Origin: an uncultured Bacilli bacterium
GTDB lineage: Bacteria; Bacillota_I; Bacilli_A; RF39; UBA660
Direction: 5' to 3'
Assembly: GCA_947623935.1 (NCBI GenBank)
Contig: CANQIE010000008.1
Span: 1-40,939 of the forward strand
Length of the DNA: 40,939 nt
Part shown: piece by piece, positions 12,628 through 25,818 of the stretch
Layout of the letters: every line of letters starts with the position of its first letter
Position numbering within the stretch: position 1 is the first letter of the stretch
Made by a program: the position numbers and the translations under genes
Notes under the pieces: generated by a model
The model's input: only the letters and a program-made list of their open reading frames with translations
What the model was told of the DNA's origin: nothing
Database searches by the model: none

Positions 12628-13529
12628 AGGAAGTAGTTGAATTATTAAAAGAAAACAATGTAGGAAGAATTTTAGAAAATGTTCCTTTAAGTCATTATAC
12701 TTCTTACCGTGTTGGAGGAGTTGCTCGTTTTTTGGTCTATCCTAAAACGACCGACCAATTGATTCTTCTTTTGAAACTTTGTAGGGAGAATAAAGTTCGT
12801 CATATGGTTTTAGGGAACGGAAGTAATACGCTTTTTAGTGATAAACCGTATGAAGGTGTCATTATCAAATTAGATGAAATGAACGAAGTGGTATTTGATA
12901 AAAATAAAGTGACGGTAGGAAGTGGATATTCTCTTCAAAAGTTATCTTATCTTGCTGCTAAAAGGTCTTTATCAGGACTCGAGTTTGCATCGGGTATTCC
13001 AGGAACCATTGGAGGGGCTGTCTACATGAATGCAGGTGCCTACAAAAGTGATATGGGCTACATCGTTTCTAAAGTAAAAGTGTTAACGGATGATTATAAA
13101 GTGATTTCTATGGTCAACCGTGAATGTCACTTTCATTATCGTAGTTCCTTTTTTCAAAAACATAAAGACTATATTATTTTGGAAGCTACGTTAAATTTAG
13201 TTCCTGGTGATAAAAGTACCATTGAAGCGATTATGAAGGAACGTCTTAGTAGACGAATGGAATCTCAACCTTTGGAGTTTCCTAGTGCCGGAAGTGTATT
13301 CCGTAATCCCGAAGGTATGTTTGCAGGAAAAATGATTGAAGATTTAGGCTTAAAAGGACTTACGAAAGGTGGGGCCCAAGTAAGTAATAAACACGCGAAC
13401 TTTATTATCAATATCGGTAAAGCAAAGAGCCAAGATATTATGGATTTGATCATCTTTATAAGAGATACCGTTTTAGAAAATTATGGCGTTAAACTACAAG
13501 TAGAACAAGAATTTGTTAATTGGGAGTAA
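12624..13529 (+). CDS. murB: UDP-N-acetylenolpyruvoylglucosamine reductase MurB
   Basis: MurB reduces UDP-GlcNAc-enolpyruvate to UDP-MurNAc with NADPH and FAD. FAD-binding motifs are clear: YRVGGVARFLVYP, LGNGSNTLF, and ASGIPGTIGGAVYMNAGAY. The catalytic serine is Ser224 in AGSVFRNP, and the conserved C-terminal glutamate is Glu294 in KLQVEQEF. The 301-residue length fits the short (type II) Gram-positive form. It starts with GTG, overlapping the murG stop, with AGGGTG upstream. The order murG-murB-ftsQ is the same as in Bacillus. Confidence 0.96.
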   Translation: MKEVVELLKENNVGRILENVPLSHYTSYRVGGVARFLVYPKTTDQLILLLKLCRENKVRHMVLGNGSNTLFSDKPYEGVIIKLDEMNEVVFDKNKVTVGSGYSLQKLSYLAAKRSLSGLEFASGIPGTIGGAVYMNAGAYKSDMGYIVSKVKVLTDDYKVISMVNRECHFHYRSSFFQKHKDYIILEATLNLVPGDKSTIEAIMKERLSRRMESQPLEFPSAGSVFRNPEGMFAGKMIEDLGLKGLTKGGAQVSNKHANFIINIGKAKSQDIMDLIIFIRDTVLENYGVKLQVEQEFVNWE

Positions 13530-13532
13530 CCT

Positions 13533-14216
13533 ATGGCAAAGAAAATAAAGAAAAAGACAAAGTTACGCGTGCTTCCCTTTCTAATTGCATTAGTTGTTTT
13601 ACTTCTTGGAAGCTTATTAGCCTATCTTGTCTTGAATGCTAAAATTAAAAACATCATTGTAACGGGAAATAGTTATGTATCGGATCAAGTATTAATCGAT
13701 TTAGCAGGAATAGAAGACTATCCTAGTTTTTACTTAACTTCGACTTCTTCCATTAAAAGAAAGATTCTAGCGAATCCTTTTATTAAAGATGTGAAGATCT
13801 ATCGTACTTTTTATCACGTTTTAAAAATTGAGGTGACGGAATATAAATTACTTTATCAAAATTACACCGATGGTAAAGTTATTTTAGAAGATGGAAGTAC
13901 ACTTTTAAGTGAAGAGGCTATCCCAGGACTTCCTGTTTTGTTAAATTATGTTCCCGATACCAAACAAGCCGATTTTTATCAAAAAATGAGCGAAGTCAAA
14001 GACGATATTTTAAAACAAATCTCGGAAATTACCTATGTTCCGAACGATTACGATAAAGACCGGTTCTTGCTCTTAATGGATGATGGCAATAGTGTTTATC
14101 TCACTTTAACCAAATTTGAAATGATTAATTATTACGATGAAGTGTTACCTCAATTAGAAGGAAAGAAGGGAATTCTCTACTTAGATTCGGGTAATCACTT
14201 CCAAATTATGGAATAG
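13533..14216 (+). CDS. ftsQ: Cell division protein FtsQ/DivIB
   Basis: This 227-residue bitopic division protein has a short basic cytoplasmic tail (AKKIKKKTKLR), one membrane span at residues 14-34 and an extracellular POTRA domain beginning at KIKNIIVTGNSYVSDQVLIDLAG. A beta domain with ILYLDSGNHFQIM follows. FtsQ/DivIB bridges FtsL/DivIC with the septal synthase. The protein is shorter than Bacillus DivIB (263 residues) and lacks a long C-terminal tail. It starts 4 bases after murB with GGGAG upstream and is followed by a terminator overlapping its stop codon. Confidence 0.9.
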   Translation: MAKKIKKKTKLRVLPFLIALVVLLLGSLLAYLVLNAKIKNIIVTGNSYVSDQVLIDLAGIEDYPSFYLTSTSSIKRKILANPFIKDVKIYRTFYHVLKIEVTEYKLLYQNYTDGKVILEDGSTLLSEEAIPGLPVLLNYVPDTKQADFYQKMSEVKDDILKQISEITYVPNDYDKDRFLLLMDDGNSVYLTLTKFEMINYYDEVLPQLEGKKGILYLDSGNHFQIME

Positions 14217-14247
14217 ATGAAAATGATTTAGGTCTTTTCATCTTTTT
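14216..14247 (+). terminator. Terminator between ftsQ and ftsA
   Basis: GATGAAAA (14216-14223) pairs perfectly with TTTTCATC (14235-14242) around an 11-nt loop, followed by five T. It splits the division cluster into murG-murB-ftsQ and ftsA-ftsZ transcripts. Confidence 0.75.
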
Positions 14248-14257
14248 ATATTTATAT

Positions 14258-14263
14258 TATAAT
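14258..14263 (+). promoter_or_regulatory. -10 box of the ftsA-ftsZ promoter
   Basis: A perfect TATAAT lies 35 bases before ftsA. The -35 position falls in the terminator's TTTTCA and is a weak match. Confidence 0.5.
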
Positions 14264-14298
14264 TAAAGTAGAATGTAAGAATAGAAAGAAGCGATGGT

Positions 14299-15534
14299 AT
14301 GCGAAAGATTTATACAGGAATCGATTTAGGAAGCGATAGCATTAAAGTAGCTGTTATTGAACTAATCGATGGCGTTTGTTACAATTTAGCATCGACCTCG
14401 TATCCTTCGAAAGGCATTAAAAAAGGGTGGATCGTTGATGCTAATTTAGCAACTGCCACCTTAAAAGAAGCCTTAAAGGAAACGGAAGAAATGTTAGGTT
14501 TATCGATTAATCAAGCCATCGTATCCATTCCTTCTTATAATAGGAGTTTTCAAATTGGCGAAGGTTCTGTTAAGGTAGAAGGGGAAGAAGGAATCATTGA
14601 TTACGACGATGTTATTCGTGTTTTACAAGATGCAACGGTGGGTAAAGTCGAAGAAGGAAAAAGACTCGTTATGACCATGCCCATTTCTTTCCATGTTGAC
14701 CAAAAAGAAGGCGTTAAAAATCCGGTTTCAATCAAGGGCGAAGAACTTGCTGTTAAAGCCGTTGTTACGTCGGTTCCTAAAGAAAACGTCGATAATGTGT
14801 TGACGGTTTTAGAAAAGTGTAACGTCAAAGCCATCGACTTCACTTTGGGTGAAATTGGCGACTACTATGCCATTAAAAATAAAGAATATGATCGAAAAGT
14901 GGGAGCTATTATCAATATTGGTTACGACACCACGAAGATTGCCGTTTATAATAAAGGAATTCTAATCAAAAATGAAATTTTAAAAAGTGGTTCTAAAAAT
15001 ATTGACAAAGATATTCGTTATGTATATCATCTAGATAAGAAAACAGCACGTTACTTAAAGGAAAACTTTGCTGTTAGCAACAAGCGTTATGCCGATGTAA
15101 ACGATACAATGGAAGTTATCAATGCCTATGGTGAAAAGATTACGATCAATCAGTTAGAACTTTCAGAAGTCGTAGAAGCACGGATTGTAGAACTATTGAA
15201 AGATGCAAAAAAACAAATAAACGTCTTAACAAACCGTGAAATAAGTTATATAATAATTACGGGTGGTATAAGCGAGCTAGCAGGATTTCAGTATGTAGTA
15301 GATAACGTCTTAGGACGTGATGCTGTGACCTTGTCTATCACTTCGATGGGGTTAAGAAACAACAAATATTCGACGGTAGTAGGAATCTGTAAGTATTTTG
15401 ATGAGAAGTTGACGTTACGGGGTAGAAAGTATTCGATGTTTAGCGAAGTTACCTTATCGTCTAGAAAAAAAGATGCACCCAGTAACAGTACCCTAGTTAG
15501 TAAAGTATTTAATCATATTTTTGATCATAATTAA
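14299..15534 (+). CDS. ftsA: Cell division protein FtsA
   Basis: FtsA is the actin-like protein that ties FtsZ filaments to the membrane. The 411-residue protein opens with the phosphate-1 loop TGIDLGSDSIKVAVIE and has the 1C insertion domain (QAIVSIPSYNRSFQ). Phosphate 2 is GAIINIGYDTTKIAVY and the adenosine motif is IIITGGISELAGF. Its last residues, LVSKVFNHIFDHN, form the expected amphipathic membrane-targeting helix. It lies 12 bases before ftsZ with its own -10 box. GAAAGAAG upstream is a modest ribosome site. Confidence 0.95.
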   Translation: MRKIYTGIDLGSDSIKVAVIELIDGVCYNLASTSYPSKGIKKGWIVDANLATATLKEALKETEEMLGLSINQAIVSIPSYNRSFQIGEGSVKVEGEEGIIDYDDVIRVLQDATVGKVEEGKRLVMTMPISFHVDQKEGVKNPVSIKGEELAVKAVVTSVPKENVDNVLTVLEKCNVKAIDFTLGEIGDYYAIKNKEYDRKVGAIINIGYDTTKIAVYNKGILIKNEILKSGSKNIDKDIRYVYHLDKKTARYLKENFAVSNKRYADVNDTMEVINAYGEKITINQLELSEVVEARIVELLKDAKKQINVLTNREISYIIITGGISELAGFQYVVDNVLGRDAVTLSITSMGLRNNKYSTVVGICKYFDEKLTLRGRKYSMFSEVTLSSRKKDAPSNSTLVSKVFNHIFDHN

Positions 15535-15546
15535 AGGAGGATTTTT

Positions 15547-16680
15547 ATGTTGGATACGCTAGAGATGGATCAATTAGCCAAAATTAAAGTCATTGGAATC
15601 GGTGGCGGTGGAGGAAATGCCGTTAACCGTATGATTGAGTCTGGAGTAAAAGGAGTCGAATTTATTGTTGCGAATACCGATTTACAGGTATTAAATAATT
15701 CCCAAGCAGATGTTAAGATTCAAATTGGTGCTAATCTTACCGATGGATTAGGAGCAGGAGCAAAACCTGAAATCGGAAGAGAAGCGGCTGTAGAATCAAA
15801 GAAAGAAATCGAAGATGCCCTAGCGGGAGCTGACATGGTTTTCATCACTTGTGGTATGGGTGGTGGAACTGGAACGGGTGCTGCTCCAGTGGTTGCTGAA
15901 ATAGCTCAAAGCTTAGGTGCCTTAACCGTTGCTATCGTTACAAAGCCATTTGGTTTTGAAGGAAAGAAACGTATGGAAAATGCGTTAGCTGGTTTGGAAG
16001 AATTAAAGAAACACGTTGATACGTTAATTGTGATTCCAAACGATCGCTTAAGAGAGATCATCGATAAGACGACTCCAATGCTTGAAGCCTTCAAAGAAGT
16101 AGATAATGTCCTTCGTCGCGGTGTTCAATCCATTTCCGATTTAATTGCCGTTGTAGGACTCGTCAACCTTGACTTCGCCGATGTTAAAGCCGTTATGGAG
16201 AAATCCGGAAATGCCATCATCGGTATTGGTATTGGAATGGGTGAAGATCGTGCTATTGAAGCTGCTCAACAAGCAGTATCTAGTCCACTACTTGAAACCA
16301 GCATTCAAGGAGCAACCGATGCCATTATCAATATCACGGGTGGCGCTAACTTAACGTTATTTGAAGCAGAACAAGCGGCTGAAGTTGTAAGAGCTGCTGC
16401 AAACACCGATATTAATACCATCTTTGGATCGGTCATTAATGAAAACTTAACTGATGAAGTTATCGTAACGGTTATTGCTACTGGTTTTGATAAAGGACCA
16501 GCAAAAGAACCATTATACAACAACATTCAAAACACGCGTAGAAGTAGTGCACCAGCACCAACTCCTGAAAAAGTAGAAGCACCTCGTGAAAGACCAAGTT
16601 CTCCATTTATTGAAGATGATGACGACGATGACGATGGCGAATTCGAAATTCCTGCTTTCTTAAAAAATAGAAATTATTAA
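15547..16680 (+). CDS. ftsZ: Cell division GTPase FtsZ
   Basis: This tubulin homologue forms the Z ring. The 377-residue protein has [13 protein letters not shown] near residue 17, the tubulin signature GGGTGTG at 105-111, and the T7 loop region [11 protein letters not shown]. An Ala/Pro-rich linker of about 50 residues follows, then an acidic run of Asp residues. The conserved C-terminal peptide [11 protein letters not shown] binds FtsA and other tethers. AAAGGAGG lies 7 bases before the ATG. FtsA-FtsZ form one transcript ending at a strong terminator. Confidence 0.98.
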
Positions 16681-16705
16681 AAGAGTTCATGAAACTCTTT
16701 TTTCT
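16679..16705 (+). terminator. Terminator of ftsAZ
   Basis: AAAAGAGTT (16679-16687) pairs with AACTCTTTT (16693-16701) around CATGA, followed by TTCTTTTC. It begins at the stop codon of ftsZ. Confidence 0.8.
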
Positions 16706-16717
16706 TTTCGCGGTTTT

Positions 16718-16726
16718 TGTTATAAT
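16718..16726 (+). promoter_or_regulatory. Extended -10 promoter of ftsK
   Basis: TGT directly before a perfect TATAAT (16721-16726) gives an extended -10, 30 bases before the chosen start codon. There is no good -35. Confidence 0.6.
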
Positions 16727-16756
16727 TAGATTAGATAGATAATCGAGGTGGATGTA

Positions 16757-19015
16757 ATGGCAAAAAGAAAAAAAAGAAAAGAAGAAAATGAAAAGAAATT
16801 TGAACATACTGAAGAATTGCTTGGAATTGCTTTTATTATTTTGGCTATTTTAAGTATTGTTCCTAAACCCTTCGGTTTTGTAGGGGAGTTGGTTGCCTCT
16901 TTTGCTATGTTCTTAATTGGAACAGGTTATCAAGTATTACTTCTTGCACTCTTTATTTTAGGATGTTATTTGGTATGGAAAAAAGAATGGCCTAATTTTT
17001 TTGCATCTCGTTTAGTAGGCATTTACTGTATTGTGTTAGGACTTATCGTTTTAGCCCATATCAATTATGTTACGGAAAATAACGGAGATGCGCTTATCAT
17101 TATTAAAGAAACGGTCAACAATTTGATGGCGAACTTTAACCGTATTGTAGAAGGAAACTTAATTACTTTAAAAGGAGCAGGTATTATAGGTGCTGTCTTT
17201 AGTATTTTATTTACCAAACTTTTTGCTGTGACAGGCGCTTATATTGTTTCTGTGGTCATTATTTTAATTGGTATTTTCTTAACCACCGGTTTCTCTTTCA
17301 TCGATAAAGGAAAAGAACTTATTATGAAAATGAAACCATCTCACGATAAAAAGAAAGAATTAAGGGATGATGAAGAAGAGGAAGAAGCGGTTGTCTTATC
17401 CAATAATCCGGATAGTAAAAAACGTTATACCATTTCTTCACTCGAGGAATTAAGTAATTTAGTAACACCTGAACCTGAAGAAGTTATAGAAAGCCCTACG
17501 GTGATAGGAGAACAAGGAGAATCTATTTCAGAAGACGAAAGACCACATCCTATGGTTCATCATGAATATAAACTTCCATCGATTAGTCTTTTATCGCCTA
17601 GTAAAAAAGGAAAGAAAACTTCTCAAGCCGATGTTGAAAAGAACATTCTAACGCTTGAAAAAGTATTACGTGATTTTGGTATTATTGGTCGTGTTGTTGC
17701 CGTAACCGAGGGACCTGCTGTTACACAGTATGAGTTAGAATTAAATTCTGGAACCAAGGTCAATAAACTTTTAGGTATTAACCGTGAGATCTCACTTGCT
17801 TTGGCTAAAAAAGATGTTCGTATTGAAGCTCCAATTCCAGGTAAATCAACAGTTGGAATTGAACTTCCAAACGATACTGTTAGTATGGTTAGTATGCGTG
17901 AAATTATCGAAAATGTTCCTGCTAACAAAGAAAAGAATAAGTTGTTAGTAGCTTTAGGTAAAAATATTCAAGGTAAACCAGTCTTTTGTGAAATAGATAA
18001 AACACCTCATCTTTTAGTTGCAGGTTCTACTGGAAGTGGTAAATCAGTTTGCATTAACTGTATTATTACGTCTATTTTATTACGTGCTAAACCGGATGAA
18101 GTAAAATTGGTTTTAGTCGATCCAAAAAAAGTAGAATTAGGTAACTACAATGGTATTCCGCACTTGTTAATGCCTGTTGTAACCGATCCTAAAAAAGCAA
18201 GTGTTGCTCTTCAAAAAATGGTTGTCGAAATGGATAATCGTTATAATGAGTTTGCGGATAAAGGGGTTAAAAATATCGTAGGCTATAACGAGTGGATTGA
18301 TAAGCAAAATAGTAAACGGAGTAAAGATGATCAATTAAAGCACATGTATTATATCGTCGTTATTATCGATGAGTTAGCTGATTTGATGATGGTTGCTAGT
18401 AAAGAGGTAGAAGACTCGATTATGCGTATTACTCAGTTAGCTCGTGCTGCTGGAATCCATTTGATTGTCGCAACCCAAAGACCAAGTACAGATGTTATCA
18501 CTGGTATCGTTAAAGCCAATATTCCATCACGAATCTCTTTTGCTGTCAGTAGTGGAATAGATTCTCGTACCATTTTGGACCAAGTAGGAGCTGAAAAACT
18601 TCTAGGTCGAGGCGATATGTTATTCTTACCGATGGGTGAAAATAGTCCTCAACGTGTTCAAGGTGCCTTTGTTTCCGATGAAGAAATTGAACGATTAATT
18701 CAACATGCTGTTAATCAACAAAAGGCTGAGTATGATGAACGCTTTACCAATCTTACAGTAAACGATGGACCAGGAGTCGATGATGTTATGGATATGGAAG
18801 AAGAATACGATGATCCACTCTACAATGAAATTGTTGACTTTGTTATTCAAACAAAAAAAGCAAGTGCTTCCTTTTTACAAAGAAAGTATCACTTAGGTTA
18901 CAATCGTGCAGCAAGAATTATAGATTTATTAGAAGAAAGAGGCGTAATAGGACCTGCTAACGGAAGTAAACCTCGAGAAGTATTAATTGGAAAAGATCAT
19001 GATGAAGAGGAATAA
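16757..19015 (+). CDS. ftsK: FtsK/SpoIIIE DNA translocase
   Basis: This hexameric DNA pump clears chromosome ends from the closing septum and, in spore formers, may fill the forespore. The 752-residue protein has four membrane spans within residues 25-190 and an acidic linker to about 290. The RecA-like motor follows, with Walker A AGSTGSGKS near residues 422-430, Walker B VVIIDELADLMMV, and TQRPSTDVITG. The C-terminal gamma domain is a winged helix (SFLQRKYHLGYNRAARIID) that reads oriented chromosomal sequences. ATG 16757 is chosen since the in-frame GTG 16748 lies inside the ribosome site GAGGTGG. FtsK versus SpoIIIE cannot be decided here. Confidence 0.95.
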   Translation: MAKRKKRKEENEKKFEHTEELLGIAFIILAILSIVPKPFGFVGELVASFAMFLIGTGYQVLLLALFILGCYLVWKKEWPNFFASRLVGIYCIVLGLIVLAHINYVTENNGDALIIIKETVNNLMANFNRIVEGNLITLKGAGIIGAVFSILFTKLFAVTGAYIVSVVIILIGIFLTTGFSFIDKGKELIMKMKPSHDKKKELRDDEEEEEAVVLSNNPDSKKRYTISSLEELSNLVTPEPEEVIESPTVIGEQGESISEDERPHPMVHHEYKLPSISLLSPSKKGKKTSQADVEKNILTLEKVLRDFGIIGRVVAVTEGPAVTQYELELNSGTKVNKLLGINREISLALAKKDVRIEAPIPGKSTVGIELPNDTVSMVSMREIIENVPANKEKNKLLVALGKNIQGKPVFCEIDKTPHLLVAGSTGSGKSVCINCIITSILLRAKPDEVKLVLVDPKKVELGNYNGIPHLLMPVVTDPKKASVALQKMVVEMDNRYNEFADKGVKNIVGYNEWIDKQNSKRSKDDQLKHMYYIVVIIDELADLMMVASKEVEDSIMRITQLARAAGIHLIVATQRPSTDVITGIVKANIPSRISFAVSSGIDSRTILDQVGAEKLLGRGDMLFLPMGENSPQRVQGAFVSDEEIERLIQHAVNQQKAEYDERFTNLTVNDGPGVDDVMDMEEEYDDPLYNEIVDFVIQTKKASASFLQRKYHLGYNRAARIIDLLEERGVIGPANGSKPREVLIGKDHDEEE

Positions 19016-19030
19016 TCCTCTTTTTATTTT
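19005..19030 (+). terminator. Terminator of ftsK
   Basis: AAGAGGA (19005-19011) pairs with TCCTCTT (19016-19022) around ATAA, followed by TTTATTTT. It includes the ftsK stop codon. Confidence 0.8.
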
Positions 19031-19046
19031 GTCCAAAAAAGTCAGG

Positions 19047-19065
19047 TTTACATTCTTGGTGTAAA
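19047..19065. promoter_or_regulatory. Inverted repeat, possible operator
   Basis: TTTACA (19047-19052) and TGTAAA (19060-19065) form a perfect inverted repeat with 7 bases between, 14 bases upstream of the -35 box of the surface-protein promoter. It has the size of a dimeric regulator site. The factor is unknown. Confidence 0.4.
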
Positions 19066-19079
19066 AAATTAACAAAAAG

Positions 19080-19107
19080 TTGACATGGGGGGGGGTAGTT
19101 TTATAAT
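19080..19107 (+). promoter_or_regulatory. Promoter with G9 tract in its spacer
   Basis: Perfect consensus TTGACA (19080-19085) and TATAAT (19102-19107) are separated by 16 bases that include nine consecutive G (19087-19095). Gain or loss of a G changes the spacer to 17 or 15 bp, which should change promoter strength. Poly-G or poly-C spacers of this kind give phase-variable transcription of porA and opc in Neisseria. Whether this tract varies cannot be seen from one sequence. Confidence 0.85.
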
Positions 19108-19141
19108 AGAAATAGATAAATAATAAAGGAGAGATCAATTT

Positions 19142-21157
19142 ATGAAAGAAAAAGGAAATACGAAAAGTTTAATTGCTGTTTGCCTATTGGTATTAAGCTT
19201 AATCTTAATCACGGTAGGAACCACTTTTGCCTTTTTTCAATACTCAAGACAAGGAGAAAAGGAAAATAAAATTGAGACAGGAACTTTAACTTTTCTTTAT
19301 GATGAAAGTAAAAGTAAAGATGGAGGAGTATCTATAGAGAATGCTTTTCCAATGAGTGATGAAGATGGAGAAGTCTTAGATCAAGCGAATAAAGATGTCT
19401 TTGACTTTGATGTAAGGGCAACAACCAAAGGAGCAGCTATTAATTATGAAATATATGTAACTAAAGAAAATATTTCTACTTTACCAGAACAAGTAGTAAA
19501 AACTTATTTAAGAGTTGTAAAGGATGGAGCAGAAAGTGACCCCGAAACAAAGGGATTACCAACAGGAAATAATTTAAATTTATATAGTGAATTATATGAT
19601 AGTAAAGTACCAAGTCTATTAAAAGATACAAGTATATCAAAAGCAAAGACATTATATAGAGAAGAAATTCCGGATGGTCAAAGCAATTATGAAAAAACAT
19701 TCCGGTATAGAATGTGGATTGATGAAAAAGCGAATCAAGTAATAAATGGAAGTTGGATATATAATGATATGACTTTCTCTGTAAAAGTAAATGTATATGC
19801 ACAGAATGGAGCAATAGATGATCCAACAGCATCTTCAACAAATCCATATCAAGAGTCGCAAGATAAAAGTGGAGCCAATGTACCTGCTTTAGTAGAAGGG
19901 TTAATACCAGTGGTTTATGATGAAGTACAACAGAAGTGGGTCAAAGCAGGATATGCTGGATGGTATGATTATGACAAACAAGAATGGGCGAATGCGGTAA
20001 CGGTTACTGCAACACATAGAAATACATATCAAGAAGCAGAACCAGGAACAGCAATTGATATGAAGGATATCAACACGATGTGGGTATGGATACCAAGATA
20101 TGAATATAACTATGCAACTCTAGCATCTGCAAGTGGACAACAAAGTGCTTGCACTGATCCATTTAACAATACTTTTAATTGTTATTTAAAATCAGGAGAA
20201 ATAAAAGTTAACTTTATAAGTGGAACAAGCAGCAAAGTAAGTGATGAAAATAATTATAAAATGCATCCAGCATTTAATTTTGGCGAAGAAGAATTAGAAG
20301 GGTTTTGGTATGCAAAGTTTGAAACTAGTCCAAGTACAGATTGTAGTAATGTATCTGATTGTAATGTAACAACATTAAAACCACAAATTAAACCAAGTGT
20401 AAAGATCTGGAATTATATACAAGTTGCTAATGCCTTTATGGTATCTCAAAAAATGAAAACAGAATATGTAGATGAATATGGATTTAACGGTGAAGAAATA
20501 GATACGCATATGAGTAAGAATAGTGAATGGGGAGCCGTAGCTTATCTTTCGCAAAGTGCCTATGGTAAATATGGGAATCCTATTTATGAAGAAGATGATA
20601 AAGAAGTTTATATTAATAACTGTGCTCGTCATATAACAGGTATAGGGGGAGATACACTCAATGCTCCTAGTACTTATAAAACTTGTGAGCTCAATACTTA
20701 TGAAACGATACAAGGACAAAAAGCATCCGCGACAGGAAACATCACAGGAGTTTATGACATGAGTGGTGGTCTTGCTGAATATGTCATGGGAGTACTTGCA
20801 GATGATGATGGAAATCCAACCATAGGAGAATCAGGATTCACTGATAGTGAAGATACAAATAAATTATCAGAATCCAAATATTATGATTTATATACAAGCA
20901 CTACTCCAGATTCCAACGATATAAATTTGTCTGAGACAGCTTGTAATAAAGGAGTATGTTATGGACATGCTTTATCAGAAACAGCTGGATGGTATGAAGA
21001 TATGTCAAGATTTGTAAGTTCTTCTTTTCCATGGTTTATACGTGGTGGGAGTAATGGCCTTAAAAATAATGCAGGTGTGTTCACATCAAATTGCGAGAGT
21101 GGTGCCACCAATGAGAATATTTCTTTCCGCCTTGTTCTTGCGCCCGTAGGAGCGTAA
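19142..21157 (+). CDS. TasA/camelysin-like surface protein with FGE-like C-terminal domain
   Basis: This exported protein has 671 residues. Its N-terminal membrane segment (residues 9-31) ends VGTTFAFFQYS, then reads KIETGTLTF. This resembles TasA/CalY proteins, which SipW-type peptidases process after TxA. A beta-rich region to about residue 222 fits that family's fold. From about residue 317 (MWVWIPRYEYNY) it resembles the formylglycine-generating-enzyme/sulfatase-modifying fold, a C-type-lectin variant: GNITGVYDMSGGLAEYVMG corresponds to the YDMSGNVWEW motif, and RGGS...SFRLVL closes the fold. The final segment (residues 634-663) looks like a DGR variable region. Codon use is A-rich (many ATA and AGA) up to there, then shifts to C- and G-ending codons. 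AAAGGAGAG precedes the ATG. No SipW, sortase signal or reverse transcriptase is nearby. An adhesin or matrix fibre role is inference. Confidence 0.75.
   Translation: MKEKGNTKSLIAVCLLVLSLILITVGTTFAFFQYSRQGEKENKIETGTLTFLYDESKSKDGGVSIENAFPMSDEDGEVLDQANKDVFDFDVRATTKGAAINYEIYVTKENISTLPEQVVKTYLRVVKDGAESDPETKGLPTGNNLNLYSELYDSKVPSLLKDTSISKAKTLYREEIPDGQSNYEKTFRYRMWIDEKANQVINGSWIYNDMTFSVKVNVYAQNGAIDDPTASSTNPYQESQDKSGANVPALVEGLIPVVYDEVQQKWVKAGYAGWYDYDKQEWANAVTVTATHRNTYQEAEPGTAIDMKDINTMWVWIPRYEYNYATLASASGQQSACTDPFNNTFNCYLKSGEIKVNFISGTSSKVSDENNYKMHPAFNFGEEELEGFWYAKFETSPSTDCSNVSDCNVTTLKPQIKPSVKIWNYIQVANAFMVSQKMKTEYVDEYGFNGEEIDTHMSKNSEWGAVAYLSQSAYGKYGNPIYEEDDKEVYINNCARHITGIGGDTLNAPSTYKTCELNTYETIQGQKASATGNITGVYDMSGGLAEYVMGVLADDDGNPTIGESGFTDSEDTNKLSESKYYDLYTSTTPDSNDINLSETACNKGVCYGHALSETAGWYEDMSRFVSSSFPWFIRGGSNGLKNNAGVFTSNCESGATNENISFRLVLAPVGA
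21041..21133 (+). other. Candidate DGR-type variable region at the gene's 3' end
   Basis: Codons 634-664 run from CGT GGT GGG AGT through the SFRL segment. They encode an RGGS...NNAGVF...ENISFR pattern, like variable regions at the lectin-fold ligand face of DGR target proteins. Many positions have codons of the form NNC or NNT (AGT, AAT, GGC, CTT, TGC, GCC, ACC, ATT), as expected if A in AAC or AAT template codons had been replaced. The GC-richer CGCCTTGTTCTTGCGCCCG that follows could be a homing-initiation sequence. No template copy is in the window. Confidence 0.4.
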
Positions 21158-21218
21158 ACAATAATTTATGAACTTTGTCAATTAGCTTGAGCGAACTGTT
21201 TATATAGGATTAATAACT

Positions 21219-21245
21219 AAAAGAGAGTTTTTAAGACTCTCTTTT
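21219..21245. terminator. Bidirectional terminator
   Basis: AAAAGAGAGT (21219-21228) pairs perfectly with ACTCTCTTTT (21236-21245) with a 7-nt loop. A and T runs on both sides let it serve the surface-protein gene on the plus strand and the peptidase gene on the minus strand, whose stop codon lies in the loop. Confidence 0.8.
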
Positions 21246-22400
21246 GATTGGTTCTAATCGCTTTACAAATTTTTTTAGATTGGTGTAACCATCTTGATGA
21301 TATGTTGCGTTAATCTTTTCTAAATATTCCTCTAAAGATTGAGTAGGTAAAGTAAAACTTCTTTTTAAAAGATAGAATGCTTTTTCAGGATCTTGTCTAT
21401 ATAAATTATATAAATCCAGTGCTCCTAAAAGGGAATGAATCATCATGATATTTTCATCAAAGTCTGAATCAATATAACCAATAGCATTACATTTATTTAT
21501 AAAAATCGGAATGTTTTGTTTTTCTAATTCTTTTTCTAATTTATGTATAGATAAATAATAAGGGCTATATTTGGCAAACTTAGAGGCATAATATTGTATG
21601 TTTAGATTTTGAATAAAGGTATTTATAATATGGATTCTGTTTTGTACTTCTTTTAAGGATTCTTCTTGACTATATCCATAGTTTTGAGCAAAATCATTCA
21701 TAATTAATTCGATAAAGTAACCTTCTAATTCCAAAAAATAAGAATTTTCTTCTTTTTGTGTTGAAAGGAATTGTTCTTTATATAAATGTCCTAGTTCATG
21801 TCCTAGTGTATTAAACTCTAATACCGTTTGGTTGCGATAAATAACAGCAAAAGGATGAGGAAGGAAAGTATCCAAATAACACGTTCCTAATTCAGGAATC
21901 ATTTCGTAATCTTCATCGGAGATGGGTAATAGTTCAACGATTCGATTAGGACCATACAAGGTATCTTCTGCGAACCTTGCAAACTCTTTGTTTACTTTTC
22001 TCAGTACTTCTAATACGTTTGCTACTAATTCTTGGTCACTTTTAATTGTTTTTTTAAATTCAGAAGGACTGTAGGCTTCTACTTCTGGAACAGAATGAAT
22101 AGCTTCTCTTGCAATGTGCTCAAAACTTTTATCAGTAAGATTTTGATAAGGTTTTACATAATTTTGATAAAGTGCATGAGCAAGACTTTCTTGACGTGGC
22201 GGTTTAGCTTCTTCACCAACTATTAACTCTTCACTATAATTTTCAATTAAAGATTGAGGTAGCTGAAGCATTTCTTCAAGAAATTCAATATCTTCTTCAA
22301 TACCTTCTCTTTTTTTACGGGAAGGTTTCATTTCTAGGAGTTTCTTTTTTTGTATTAAAAGTTCTTCTAGTTCTTGTTTATCCCAAGTAAATGACTTCAT
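21231..22400 (-). CDS. Zincin metallopeptidase, M3-like, unassigned
   Basis: The 389-residue protein has a zinc-binding HELGH motif (His201, Glu202, His205). About 20 residues on is LELEGYFIEL, whose glutamates (Glu224, Glu226 or Glu231) could be the third ligand. This arrangement and the helical character resemble M3 (PepF-like) or M32-type peptidases, but it is far shorter than the 600 residues of PepF and I cannot place it in a named family. There is no signal peptide, so it is probably cytoplasmic. The N-terminal 60 residues look like a coiled coil. ATG 22400 is chosen over GTG 22409, which overlaps the ribosome site GAGGTG. It has its own good promoter. Confidence 0.7.
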   Translation of the reverse strand: MKSFTWDKQELEELLIQKKKLLEMKPSRKKREGIEEDIEFLEEMLQLPQSLIENYSEELIVGEEAKPPRQESLAHALYQNYVKPYQNLTDKSFEHIAREAIHSVPEVEAYSPSEFKKTIKSDQELVANVLEVLRKVNKEFARFAEDTLYGPNRIVELLPISDEDYEMIPELGTCYLDTFLPHPFAVIYRNQTVLEFNTLGHELGHLYKEQFLSTQKEENSYFLELEGYFIELIMNDFAQNYGYSQEESLKEVQNRIHIINTFIQNLNIQYYASKFAKYSPYYLSIHKLEKELEKQNIPIFINKCNAIGYIDSDFDENIMMIHSLLGALDLYNLYRQDPEKAFYLLKRSFTLPTQSLEEYLEKINATYHQDGYTNLKKFVKRLEPIKRES

Positions 22401-22423
22401 ACTTTTCACCTCACTCGGGTATT

Positions 22424-22452
22424 ATTGTATAAATTTTTCATCTGTTCGTCAA
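22424..22452 (-). promoter_or_regulatory. Promoter of the zincin gene
   Basis: On the minus strand TTGACG (22447-22452), a 17-bp spacer and TACAAT (22424-22429) give a near-consensus sigma-A promoter. Confidence 0.75.
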
Positions 22453-22489
22453 CAAAAACACAATAATGTAAGTAAATACTGATATTTTT

Positions 22490-22498
22490 TGGTATAAT
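22490..22498 (+). promoter_or_regulatory. Extended -10 promoter of deoD
   Basis: TGG precedes a perfect TATAAT (22493-22498), 23 bases before the deoD start. No clear -35 is visible. Confidence 0.6.
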
Positions 22499-22521
22499 AG
22501 AAATAGAAAGAAGGTATGATT

Positions 22522-23229
22522 ATGCCCACACCTCATATAGAATGTGAAAAAGGAATGATTAGTAAGAATGTTATTATGCCAGGAGATCCACTACGTGCAA
22601 AGTTTATAGCAGAACATTTTTTAACGGATGTAAAGATGGTCAATCAAGTACGAAATTGTTTGGCTTATACCGGAAAATACAAGGGAAAGGAAGTTACTGT
22701 TTTTTCTTCCGGCATGGGTATTCCTAGCATGGGAATCTATGCTTATGAACTATATCAGTTTTATGATGTAGAGAAAATTATTAGAGTAGGGTCTTGTGGT
22801 ACGTTTAAAGAAGATATCCATTTATTTGATTTGATACTTGTTTCTTCTTCTGTAAGTGAATCTACTTTTGGACAAGTCTTTTCTGGAAGTAGGGAAGAAC
22901 AGGTATATGGAAGTAGTACGTTAAATCAAAAAATTAAAGAGGTAGGGAAGTCTTTAAATAAAAATATTTACGAAGGAAATGTTTATTGTTCCGAAGCTTT
23001 TTATTCCATGATGAAAGAAAAGTCTTCTCTTATTGAAAAGTATCAATGTTTAAGTGTGGAAATGGAAAGTTTTGCTTTATTTCATATTGCAAATGCCTTA
23101 CATAAAGAAGCAAGTTGCTTACTTACGGTTTCAGATTCCATGGTCACCAATGAAGAAACTTCGAGTGAAGAGCGGGAAAAAGGTTTTACCGATATGATTG
23201 AAGTGGCATTAGAATCCATACTTTTCTAA
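22522..23229 (+). CDS. deoD: Purine-nucleoside phosphorylase DeoD
   Basis: This hexameric (low-molecular-weight subunit) phosphorylase of the NP-I family splits purine nucleosides with phosphate, yielding base and (deoxy)ribose 1-phosphate for salvage. The typical start MPTPHIE is present, followed by the phosphate-site motif MPGDPLRAKFIAEHFL. Other motifs are SSGMGIPSMGIYAYEL, VGSCGTF and VEMESFAL, with the catalytic Asp in TVSDSM. It is 235 residues long, full size. ATG 22522 is chosen over ATG 22516, because AAGG (22511-22514) is only one base from the latter. It is not followed by a clear terminator. Confidence 0.95.
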   Translation: MPTPHIECEKGMISKNVIMPGDPLRAKFIAEHFLTDVKMVNQVRNCLAYTGKYKGKEVTVFSSGMGIPSMGIYAYELYQFYDVEKIIRVGSCGTFKEDIHLFDLILVSSSVSESTFGQVFSGSREEQVYGSSTLNQKIKEVGKSLNKNIYEGNVYCSEAFYSMMKEKSSLIEKYQCLSVEMESFALFHIANALHKEASCLLTVSDSMVTNEETSSEEREKGFTDMIEVALESILF

Positions 23230-23248
23230 TAATTTAGTAGAAAATACA

Positions 23249-23254
23249 TATAAT
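23249..23254 (+). promoter_or_regulatory. -10 box upstream of ymfF
   Basis: A perfect TATAAT lies between deoD and ymfF with no good -35. The M16 pair may be transcribed from here as well as from the deoD promoter. Confidence 0.4.
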
Positions 23255-23282
23255 AAGAACAGATTAAAGGGAGCTGATGAAG

Positions 23283-24551
23283 ATGCAAGAGAAAAAAGTA
23301 AAATATGGTTCAGATACCATTCATATGATTAAGACGGATCAATTTAGAACGATTACCATAAAAGTAGTCTTAAAAGAGAAAGTCGCTAAAGACAGGATTA
23401 CCATGCGTAATTTTTTAACTAGTATGCTTACCGATACAACGTTAAAATATCCAACGAAAAGGTTATTAATCAAGGAGGCAGAAGATTTATATAATGTTGA
23501 CTTTCATATCTTAAATAGACGCCTTGGTAAATATAGTAATACTAATATTACGATGAGTTTATTAAATGAGAAATATACGGAAGAAGGCATGCTTGAGAAA
23601 AGTATTGAATTTTTGAGTGAAATCTTATTTCATCCCAATATAAAAAACAATCAATTCAATCAAAAATCGTTTGAATTTATCATGGAAAACAGTAAAAAGG
23701 CGATTCTTGGCATGGAAGAGCGAAAAGAAGCTTTGGCAGTAGTCCGAATGATGGAAAAGATGGGATACGATCCACTTACGTATAGAGATTATGGTTATGT
23801 AGAAGATTTAGAGAAAATTACACCTCAAAATTTAGTACCTTTTTATAAAGAATGGATTAAAAAAGCCCACTTTGATATTTATGTTTTAGGCGATATTTCT
23901 TTTTCTAAGATAGAATCGCTCTTTAAAAAGTATTTTCCGATTGAAACCTATAAAAAAGAAATCGTTACGCCTTTCTTAGATCCACTTCCAAAAAGGAGAA
24001 AAGTTCAAACTGTGGTAGAGACCGATGAAGTGGAACAAGCGAAACTCGTTATTGGTTGTGTGGTAGATCCTCTAGAAAAATATATGCATAACTATGTATG
24101 GAACCTCTATACCATTATTTTAGGAGCCAGTCCAGACTCTAAATTTTTTAAAAATATTCGGGAAAAACATTCAGTTTGTTACTACGTCAATGCCTCGATG
24201 CGAAAGTTTGATCATTTGCTTTTAATTCGAGCAGGCATTGATGAAAGTCAATTTAAGAAAACCGTTTCTCTTATTAAAAAAGAAATGAAAGCAATGGCTA
24301 AGGGAGATTTTTCTCTTGAAGATATAGAGAAGGCCAAGAAACTTTATATTTCTCTTTTGGATGAGATGAACGATAACCCGAATGAGTTGATTGAGTCCTA
24401 TATATCTTCCGATTTATCTGGAATAGGCTCGATTGAAGAACGGAAAAAAGAAATTTTAAAGGTGACCAAAGAAAACATTGTTGAGATGGCTAAAAAAGTA
24501 CATTTTGATACCATTTATTTATTGAAAGGAGAAAACCATGGAAGAGATTAA
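23283..24551 (+). CDS. ymfF: M16-family protein without zinc site (YmfF-like)
   Basis: This 422-residue protein has the insulinase-fold layout, with two repeats of about 200 residues. The HxxEH zinc motif is absent at the expected place (around RITMRNFLTSML), so it is presumably a non-catalytic partner. Recognisable pieces include the C-terminal VKKVHF-type helix and the KNIREKHSVCYYV strand typical of M16C. Pairing with an active M16 peptidase encoded next door is the ymfF-ymfH arrangement of Bacilli, which has been linked to EF-P modification. ATG 23283 fits AGGGAG (23268-23273) better than ATG 23277, though either is possible. It overlaps ymfH by 14 bases. Confidence 0.85.
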   Translation: MQEKKVKYGSDTIHMIKTDQFRTITIKVVLKEKVAKDRITMRNFLTSMLTDTTLKYPTKRLLIKEAEDLYNVDFHILNRRLGKYSNTNITMSLLNEKYTEEGMLEKSIEFLSEILFHPNIKNNQFNQKSFEFIMENSKKAILGMEERKEALAVVRMMEKMGYDPLTYRDYGYVEDLEKITPQNLVPFYKEWIKKAHFDIYVLGDISFSKIESLFKKYFPIETYKKEIVTPFLDPLPKRRKVQTVVETDEVEQAKLVIGCVVDPLEKYMHNYVWNLYTIILGASPDSKFFKNIREKHSVCYYVNASMRKFDHLLLIRAGIDESQFKKTVSLIKKEMKAMAKGDFSLEDIEKAKKLYISLLDEMNDNPNELIESYISSDLSGIGSIEERKKEILKVTKENIVEMAKKVHFDTIYLLKGENHGRD

Positions 24552-25818
24552 ACTAGCTGGACTTGATCAAAGTCTATTTTATGAAAAACTAGAAAATGGT
24601 TTGGAGGTGTATCTTCTTCCTTATCCTAAGAAAAAGAATTTTTGTGTACATTATGCTACCCATTTTGGATCTCTTGATACGGAGTTTGTTCCGGTAGGAG
24701 AAGATAAAATGATTAGGGTACCCGATGGTATTGCTCACTTTTTGGAACATAAGATGTTTGAACAAGAAGATGGGCAGGATCCTTTTAGCTTCTTTACGGA
24801 AAGAGGTTGCGATTGCAATGCTTCGACTACCTGGAAAAGTACAAGGTATTTATTTTCAGGATGTGACCACTTAGAAGAAAACTTAGATTATTTGCTCTCA
24901 TATGTCAACCGTCCTTATTTTACGGATGAAAATGTCGAAAAAGAAAAAGGCATTATTGCCGAAGAAATTAAGATGTATAACGATGATATTGATTGGACGA
25001 TGGAACGTAAAATGAAAGAAGCTACTTTCCATAAAGACCATATCAAAGTCGATATTGCAGGAACTGTGGAATCGATTGGAGAGATTACCAAAGAAGATTT
25101 ATATCATTGCTATAATACTTTTTATCAGCCAAGCAATATGTTTCTAATTGCTACCGGAAATATCGATTGCGAAAAGATAATCGAACAAATTAAAAATCAT
25201 CCCGATTTAAAAAATCGCAAAAGTAATCTTCCGTTTACCGTAAAGAAAGAAAAAGAAGAAAAATCGGTCGTTCACAAATATCAAGAAATAGAACAAAATG
25301 TAGTAAATCAAAAAGTGGGATTAACCTTTAAGATTCCATGGGATAGTAAAATGGATCCGTATTTGTTTGATACTTATTTAGGAAGTCTCTTATCGATTTT
25401 GTTTGGGCAAAGTTCTGTCTATTCCGAAATGATTCGGGATAATGGTTTAGCTACAACGTTCTTCTATATGCGGGAACACACCGATGATTATGTAACGATT
25501 GAATTTATTGCTCAAGCCGATGATGCGAAAAAGTTTACGGATTTTGTTATCGATACTTTGAAGAATGGAAAAATCACCAAAGAAGATTTAGAACGGGTTA
25601 AAAAAGTATGGATTTCCTCGGAAGTTATCATGGTCGATAATAGCGAAGCAACTCTTGACAATATCTATTACGATTTAACAGAATTTAGAAGATTAATTCC
25701 TGATAAAATAGAGATTTATAAATCGTTATCGTTTGATACCTTAAAGAAGATTCGTAAAGATCTTAAATTAGATTCTTATTCCGTAGTCGTAGTTCATCCT
25801 AAAGAAAACAAAGAGTAA
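24538..25818 (+). CDS. ymfH: M16-family zinc peptidase (YmfH-like)
   Basis: This is the catalytic partner of the preceding protein. The inverted zinc motif is HFLEH (His67, Glu70, His71), with the distal ligand Glu142 or Glu143 in IIAEEIKMYNDD. The 426-residue length covers one N-terminal and one C-terminal M16 domain, with YSEMIRDNGLATTFFY in the second half. The heterodimer probably has a closed chamber like other M16 pairs, cutting small unfolded peptides in the cytoplasm. It starts inside the end of ymfF with AAAGGAG 6 bases before ATG. A terminator follows at the stop codon. Confidence 0.92.
   Translation: MEEIKLAGLDQSLFYEKLENGLEVYLLPYPKKKNFCVHYATHFGSLDTEFVPVGEDKMIRVPDGIAHFLEHKMFEQEDGQDPFSFFTERGCDCNASTTWKSTRYLFSGCDHLEENLDYLLSYVNRPYFTDENVEKEKGIIAEEIKMYNDDIDWTMERKMKEATFHKDHIKVDIAGTVESIGEITKEDLYHCYNTFYQPSNMFLIATGNIDCEKIIEQIKNHPDLKNRKSNLPFTVKKEKEEKSVVHKYQEIEQNVVNQKVGLTFKIPWDSKMDPYLFDTYLGSLLSILFGQSSVYSEMIRDNGLATTFFYMREHTDDYVTIEFIAQADDAKKFTDFVIDTLKNGKITKEDLERVKKVWISSEVIMVDNSEATLDNIYYDLTEFRRLIPDKIEIYKSLSFDTLKKIRKDLKLDSYSVVVVHPKENKE

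Follow-up and report, generated by a model that had tools for sequence, protein, structure and literature searches.

In Neisseria meningitidis, a homopolymeric tract between the -35 and -10 elements controls the surface proteins encoded by porA, fetA and opc (PMC2791445). The lipoprotein genes of the vlp family of Mycoplasma hyorhinis each have a promoter poly-A tract, in which random insertions and deletions switch expression, and in Mycoplasma mycoides SC the length of a repeat in the promoter spacer alters transcription of the surface protein Vmm (PMC10502178). The vlhA genes of Mycoplasma gallisepticum are numerous paralogous surface genes with a variable number of GAA repeats in the promoter region, between conserved flanks (PMC6258824). 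Given these precedents, the mechanism itself is already known, and the rarity that the original prediction ascribed to promoter-spacer switching has to be narrowed, since the kind is not new in the wider group (mycoplasma Vlp and Vmm; PMC10502178). What appears to be new in the system described here is its scale, its lineage and its pairing with targets resembling those of diversity-generating retroelements (DGRs): such a copy number and such a lineage were not found in the open-licence literature searched, nor was the pairing of DGR-like targets with poly-G promoters.

The window, a stretch of 40,939 nt, is contig C8 of G000, a 1.15-Mb assembly (50 contigs, 93% complete) from a tiny, uncultured, gut-type member of the Bacilli. 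Between an ftsK-like gene (16748-19015) and an ORF for a 671-aa protein (19142-21157), positions 19080-19107 read TTGACA-T-GGGGGGGGG-TAGTTT-TATAAT, which matches the promoter consensus at 12 of 12 positions and is the only such match in 13000-25000. The nine G residues lie between TTGACA and TATAAT in a 16-bp spacer, precisely as the original prediction had it, and the -10 hexamer is 34 bp from the start of the 671-aa protein gene. The tract, at 19087-19095, had rightly been called a striking exception: it is the only run of more than five G or C in the window, the next-longest G run being 5. The proposal of a surface-type product also agrees with our reading, in which the predicted N-terminal signal/anchor indicates a protein of the membrane-anchored type. 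The features of the locus are as follows.

19047-19065, + strand: inverted repeat TTTACA-N7-TGTAAA, immediately 5′ of the promoter (from the sequence)
19069-19079, + strand: TTAACAAAAAG, conserved upstream box that runs into the -35 element (TTAACAAAAAGTTGAC), from comparison of copies
19080-19085, + strand: -35 hexamer TTGACA (from the sequence)
19086, + strand: single T after the -35 hexamer (from the sequence)
19087-19095, + strand: G9 tract, where the spacer varies in length (from the sequence; G6-G10 among copies)
19096-19101, + strand: TAGTTT, the 3′ part of the spacer, constant in length (copy comparison)
19102-19107, + strand: -10 hexamer TATAAT (from the sequence)
19126-19131, + strand: ribosome binding site AAGGAG of the 671-aa protein gene (from the sequence)
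19142-21157, + strand: gene for the 671-aa protein, with an N-terminal signal/anchor helix of TasA/CalY-like appearance and C-terminal FGE-sulfatase/C-lectin-like motifs
21032-21139, + strand: hypervariable C-terminal region, resembling a DGR variable region (VR), W..RGG......AGVF......G.......SFRLVL (paralog comparison)
21218-21246, + strand: terminator-like hairpin 3′ of the 671-aa protein gene (from the sequence)

We searched G000 for six or more G followed by TATAAT and found 43 sites, with no matches to the reversed pattern genome-wide. A second genome-wide search, for every tract of eight or more G, also returned 43, compared with about three expected on both strands under an order-1 model derived from the window; 42 of these 43 tracts lie inside tract promoters. 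The window site is thus one of about 42 near-identical copies. The sole G8 tract outside the promoters (L244, contig C21:6425-6433) is part of the reading frame of an essC-like ORF (type VII secretion), where it is a possible frameshift switch. At L053 (contig C31:96-110) we observed a decayed copy with a spacer of 10 and no gene behind it. Two classes of copy were distinguished, class A being TTAACAAAAAGTTGAC[G/C/A]T-G9-TAGTTT-TATAAT and class B TTGAC[T/G]-G8/9-TTAACTTTAT-TATAAT. The upstream box (TTAACAAAAAG/TTAACAAAAAGTTGAC) is kept in most class A copies of G000 and of G002, a genome of the same genus (MAG 'Lapin-032__bin119'), and the -35 hexamer is TTGACG or TTGACC in the majority of paralogous copies, compared with TTGACA in the window. 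Sequences similar to the inverted repeat at 19047-19065, but variable, are found 5′ of some other copies. About 12 tract promoters have a longer leader (L049, L056, L061, L064, L065, L066, L067, L069, L072, L073, L079 and L080) containing a conserved, AT-rich, promoter-like TTTCTTTTTAGTTAA...TATAAT, a candidate second promoter through which transcription could circumvent the tract.

Outside G000, tract promoters number 27 in G002 and 26 in G001, both congeners, and 28 in G008, a member of another genus. A survey for TTGAC-(0-2)-G7+-TATAAT in 242 sampled genomes (148 genera) of the taxonomic family gave at least one match in 16 genomes and 15 genera, with no control matches. When 296 genomes were sampled across the class, the 258 from other families yielded a single site, and none was found in phage and viral contigs. 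A chance origin of the tract promoters is ruled out by the reversed-pattern controls of the G000 search and of both surveys. The element recurs in the separate genomes G001, G002, G008, G021, G054 and G188 with tracts of 7-12 G. In the other genera the products of the downstream genes are often anchored or secreted, and they belong to unrelated families. The promoters of G008 (loci L143-L150 and L188-L204) have TTTCATAAATC in place of TTGAC before the tract, which is G6-G9 and lies 14 nt from TATAAT.

A downstream ORF was readable at 37 of the 43 sites in G000, the remaining sites being at contig ends or decayed. A hydrophobic signal/anchor of TasA/CalY-like appearance begins 36 of the 37, and these 36 anchored proteins come mostly from one paralogous family or a few related families. 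The 37th (L068, contig C4, 37173 region) is an unrelated 426-aa protein whose C-terminus looks SHOCT-like by eye. The 671-aa protein of the window has 61 matches within G000, and at least two members of its family are without a G tract. Searches with this protein against Pfam, NCBIfam, PHROGs and PDB sequences gave no confident family; the FGE-sulfatase Pfam match to the C-terminal domain was weak (0.013, in 2 of 8 relatives), and an Ig-like surface domain was matched in one paralog. An AlphaFold model built with eight sequences was too poor for use (mean pLDDT 36).

The arrangement resembles the porA, fetA and opc promoters in placing a homopolymer between the -35 and -10 elements of surface-protein promoters. 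However, those are single genes, whereas here there are about 42 copies before a paralog family in uncultured Bacilli. The vlp genes, which form a small gene family, are alike in that each member of a surface-gene family has its own homopolymeric promoter tract; they differ in that the tract is poly-A rather than poly-G and that the lipoproteins are unrelated to the 671-aa protein family. Vmm shares a repeat inside the promoter spacer, but it varies by dinucleotide insertions and deletions at one gene. In vlhA, many paralogs likewise each stand behind a repeat-containing promoter, although there the repeated unit is the trinucleotide GAA, located some 40 nt 5′ of the start site, and no homopolymer in the spacer is involved.

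The spacing of ordinary promoters was assessed over about 289 kb of G000, taking sites with at most one mismatch to the consensus and no G tract. These peak at a spacer of 17 (21 sites, all of distinct sequence, versus 3 at 16; 4-5 in the reversed control), so that the optimum of 17 assumed in the original prediction is borne out for this host. In contrast, the tract promoters of G000 have a spacer of 16 in 32 cases and of 17 in 4 (Fisher p 2e-9 for tract versus ordinary spacing, with the copies not being independent). This fits tract promoters that rest off the optimum, mostly one G short of 17. For 15 further genomes of the family, 65 TTGAC-G sites were listed; their spacer is 16 in 24 cases, 19 in 17 and 17 in 6, and in G001 all 26 spacers are of 19-20 bp. 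Given these long spacers and the missing TTGAC box of G008, a simple 17-bp rule fails for some relatives. The view that the promoter sits one G from its optimum therefore stands for the window promoter and its host, but is not general.

Tract length differs between copies with the same flanks: G8, G9 or G10 in G000, G8 or G9 in G002 and in G001, and G6, G7, G8 or G9 in G008. Over the same copies, the rest of the spacer hardly changes in length. The 11-nt non-tract part is constant in 26 of 26 G001 promoters despite many substitutions, the 14-nt part between tract and TATAAT keeps its length in all 28 promoters of G008, and the non-tract part has a constant length in 23 of 24 class A copies of G002; in class A copies of G000, deviations come mainly from substitutions at the tract edge. 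Two copies that have a private substitution in common (TTGACCTA) carry G6 and G8. An orthologous class B locus has G8 in G000 but G7 in G002, and its immediate flanks are unchanged. At the level of paralogs and of species, length thus varies as had been supposed, and almost all of the variation falls within the tract (G6-G10). Judged from these comparisons, we infer that it is the trace left by slippage over evolutionary time. MutS and MutL are both encoded in G000, which rules out loss of mismatch repair as a cause of instability.

We conclude that multi-locus phase variation via poly-G promoter spacers is probably the best explanation, given the architecture and the comparative length variation. 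Slipped-strand mispairing in the tract would add or remove G and so alter the -35 to -10 distance. In the G9 form, the spacer of 16 would be one below the host optimum of 17, so that most family members would be silent or expressed at a low level, while those few copies that have a 17-bp spacer would be on. The copies would slip independently, such that each cell would show another subset of the anchored-protein family, and the displayed proteins would themselves have diversified C-terminal ends, probably owing to a DGR. In this explanation we infer that the length differences stem from slippage and that they affect transcription, as well as the display at the surface and the purpose of switching. 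Several observations count against it. Tract lengths are tight, with G9 in 33 of 43 copies; slippage rates should be lower with MutS and MutL present; and three class A copies of G000 with G8 or G10 retain a spacer of 16 via tract-edge substitutions, which would be expected if selection favoured a spacer of 16. Further points against it are the promoters of G001 and G008, which escape a simple 17-bp rule, and the possible second promoter in about 12 of the leaders.

The tightness of tract lengths also bears on an alternative that we consider unlikely, namely that the tract is a fixed recognition element, TTGAC-G8/9, bound by a dedicated regulator or an altered RNA polymerase subunit; the promoters would then form one regulon and their length variation would be incidental. 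Consistent with this, tract lengths centre tightly on 8-9 in every genome, and G008 keeps the tract though its TTGAC box is missing, so that of the two the tract is better conserved. G000 and G002 have both kept the upstream box TTAACAAAAAGTTGAC, and the 19-20 bp spacers that were seen are typical of some activator-dependent promoters. However, the distance from the tract to the -10 element ranges from 6 to 14 in the genomes compared, with almost all values represented, a poor fit for a fixed DNA-bound activator. Moreover, the upstream box is absent from the other genera, and copies with identical flanks differ in tract length.

Less probable still is that the tract promoter mainly serves as a block of homology for cassette exchange, its likeness among copies arising from gene conversion and the tract having no role in switching. 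Exchange itself is illustrated at the ftsK site, where the window (19015-19142) and locus L115 of G002 are syntenic upstream and have different promoter-gene cassettes, a difference that we interpret as cassette exchange at the promoter. More generally, at several sites G000 and G002 agree for more than 1 kb 5′ of the promoter but have a different family member or leader behind it; a flank of about 60-70 bp is common to copies before unrelated genes; and a contig end is found no more than 320 bp away from 12 of the 43 copies, versus 1.2 expected. Nevertheless, homogenisation fails to explain the persistence of the tract in genera with different flanking promoter sequence. The two processes, exchange of cassettes and switching by the tract, do not conflict and may occur side by side. 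Finally, it is very improbable that the tract lengths reflect sequencing or assembly error at an ordinary promoter: Illumina reads are known to be unreliable in runs of eight G or longer, where meningococcal contigs break (PMC4235727), and contig ends are enriched near the tract sites, but other, separate genomes, from several genera, also contain the element, with 7-12 G in the tract, and the breaks lie 25-310 bp away from the tract, as repeats would give.

Phase variation through the poly-G spacers would act on proteins whose C-terminal ends are probably diversified by a DGR. When paralogs are compared, entropy is close to 3 bits at many of the final 36 residues of the family, which are set in a framework that stays fixed. 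The corresponding window region, 21032-21139, matches a template-repeat-like sequence on contig C2 of G000 (about 58868-59005; L065), 3′ of a family gene, which has the same framework and carries Asn (AAY) codons at the variable positions. Across 28 genomic variable regions compared with this template, mismatches affect 64.5% of template A, 42% of C, 25% of G and 22% of T, a bias toward template adenines that is present, though not exclusive. DGRs with many VRs are known (PMC6642488). The present case is like them in its C-terminal hypervariable region, its AAY-rich template-like copy and the reverse transcriptase (RT) with an Avd-like ORF in related genomes (G001, G002, G008 and G013, with the template-like repeat and RT on one contig in G001, G002 and G013). 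It differs in that the window's own assembly, 93% complete, has no RT match (PF00078). We conclude that DGR diversification is likely in the genus and unproven in G000.

Taken together, these data suggest, tentatively, a two-layer system in a genome-reduced gut lineage of the Bacilli, in which a retroelement would rewrite the binding ends, at the C-terminus, of around 40 surface proteins, about 42 independent poly-G promoters, mostly one base short of the best spacing, would randomly select those to be displayed, and promoter recombination would swap cassettes. Phase variation at the promoter spacer has so far concerned mostly a few genes of pathogens, whereas here it would involve about 42 copies in a single genome of 1.15 Mb from an uncultured lineage. 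If this is true, tract length alone would predict which surface proteins are expressed. At stake is whether a commensal shuffles its receptor repertoire in the manner of pathogens.
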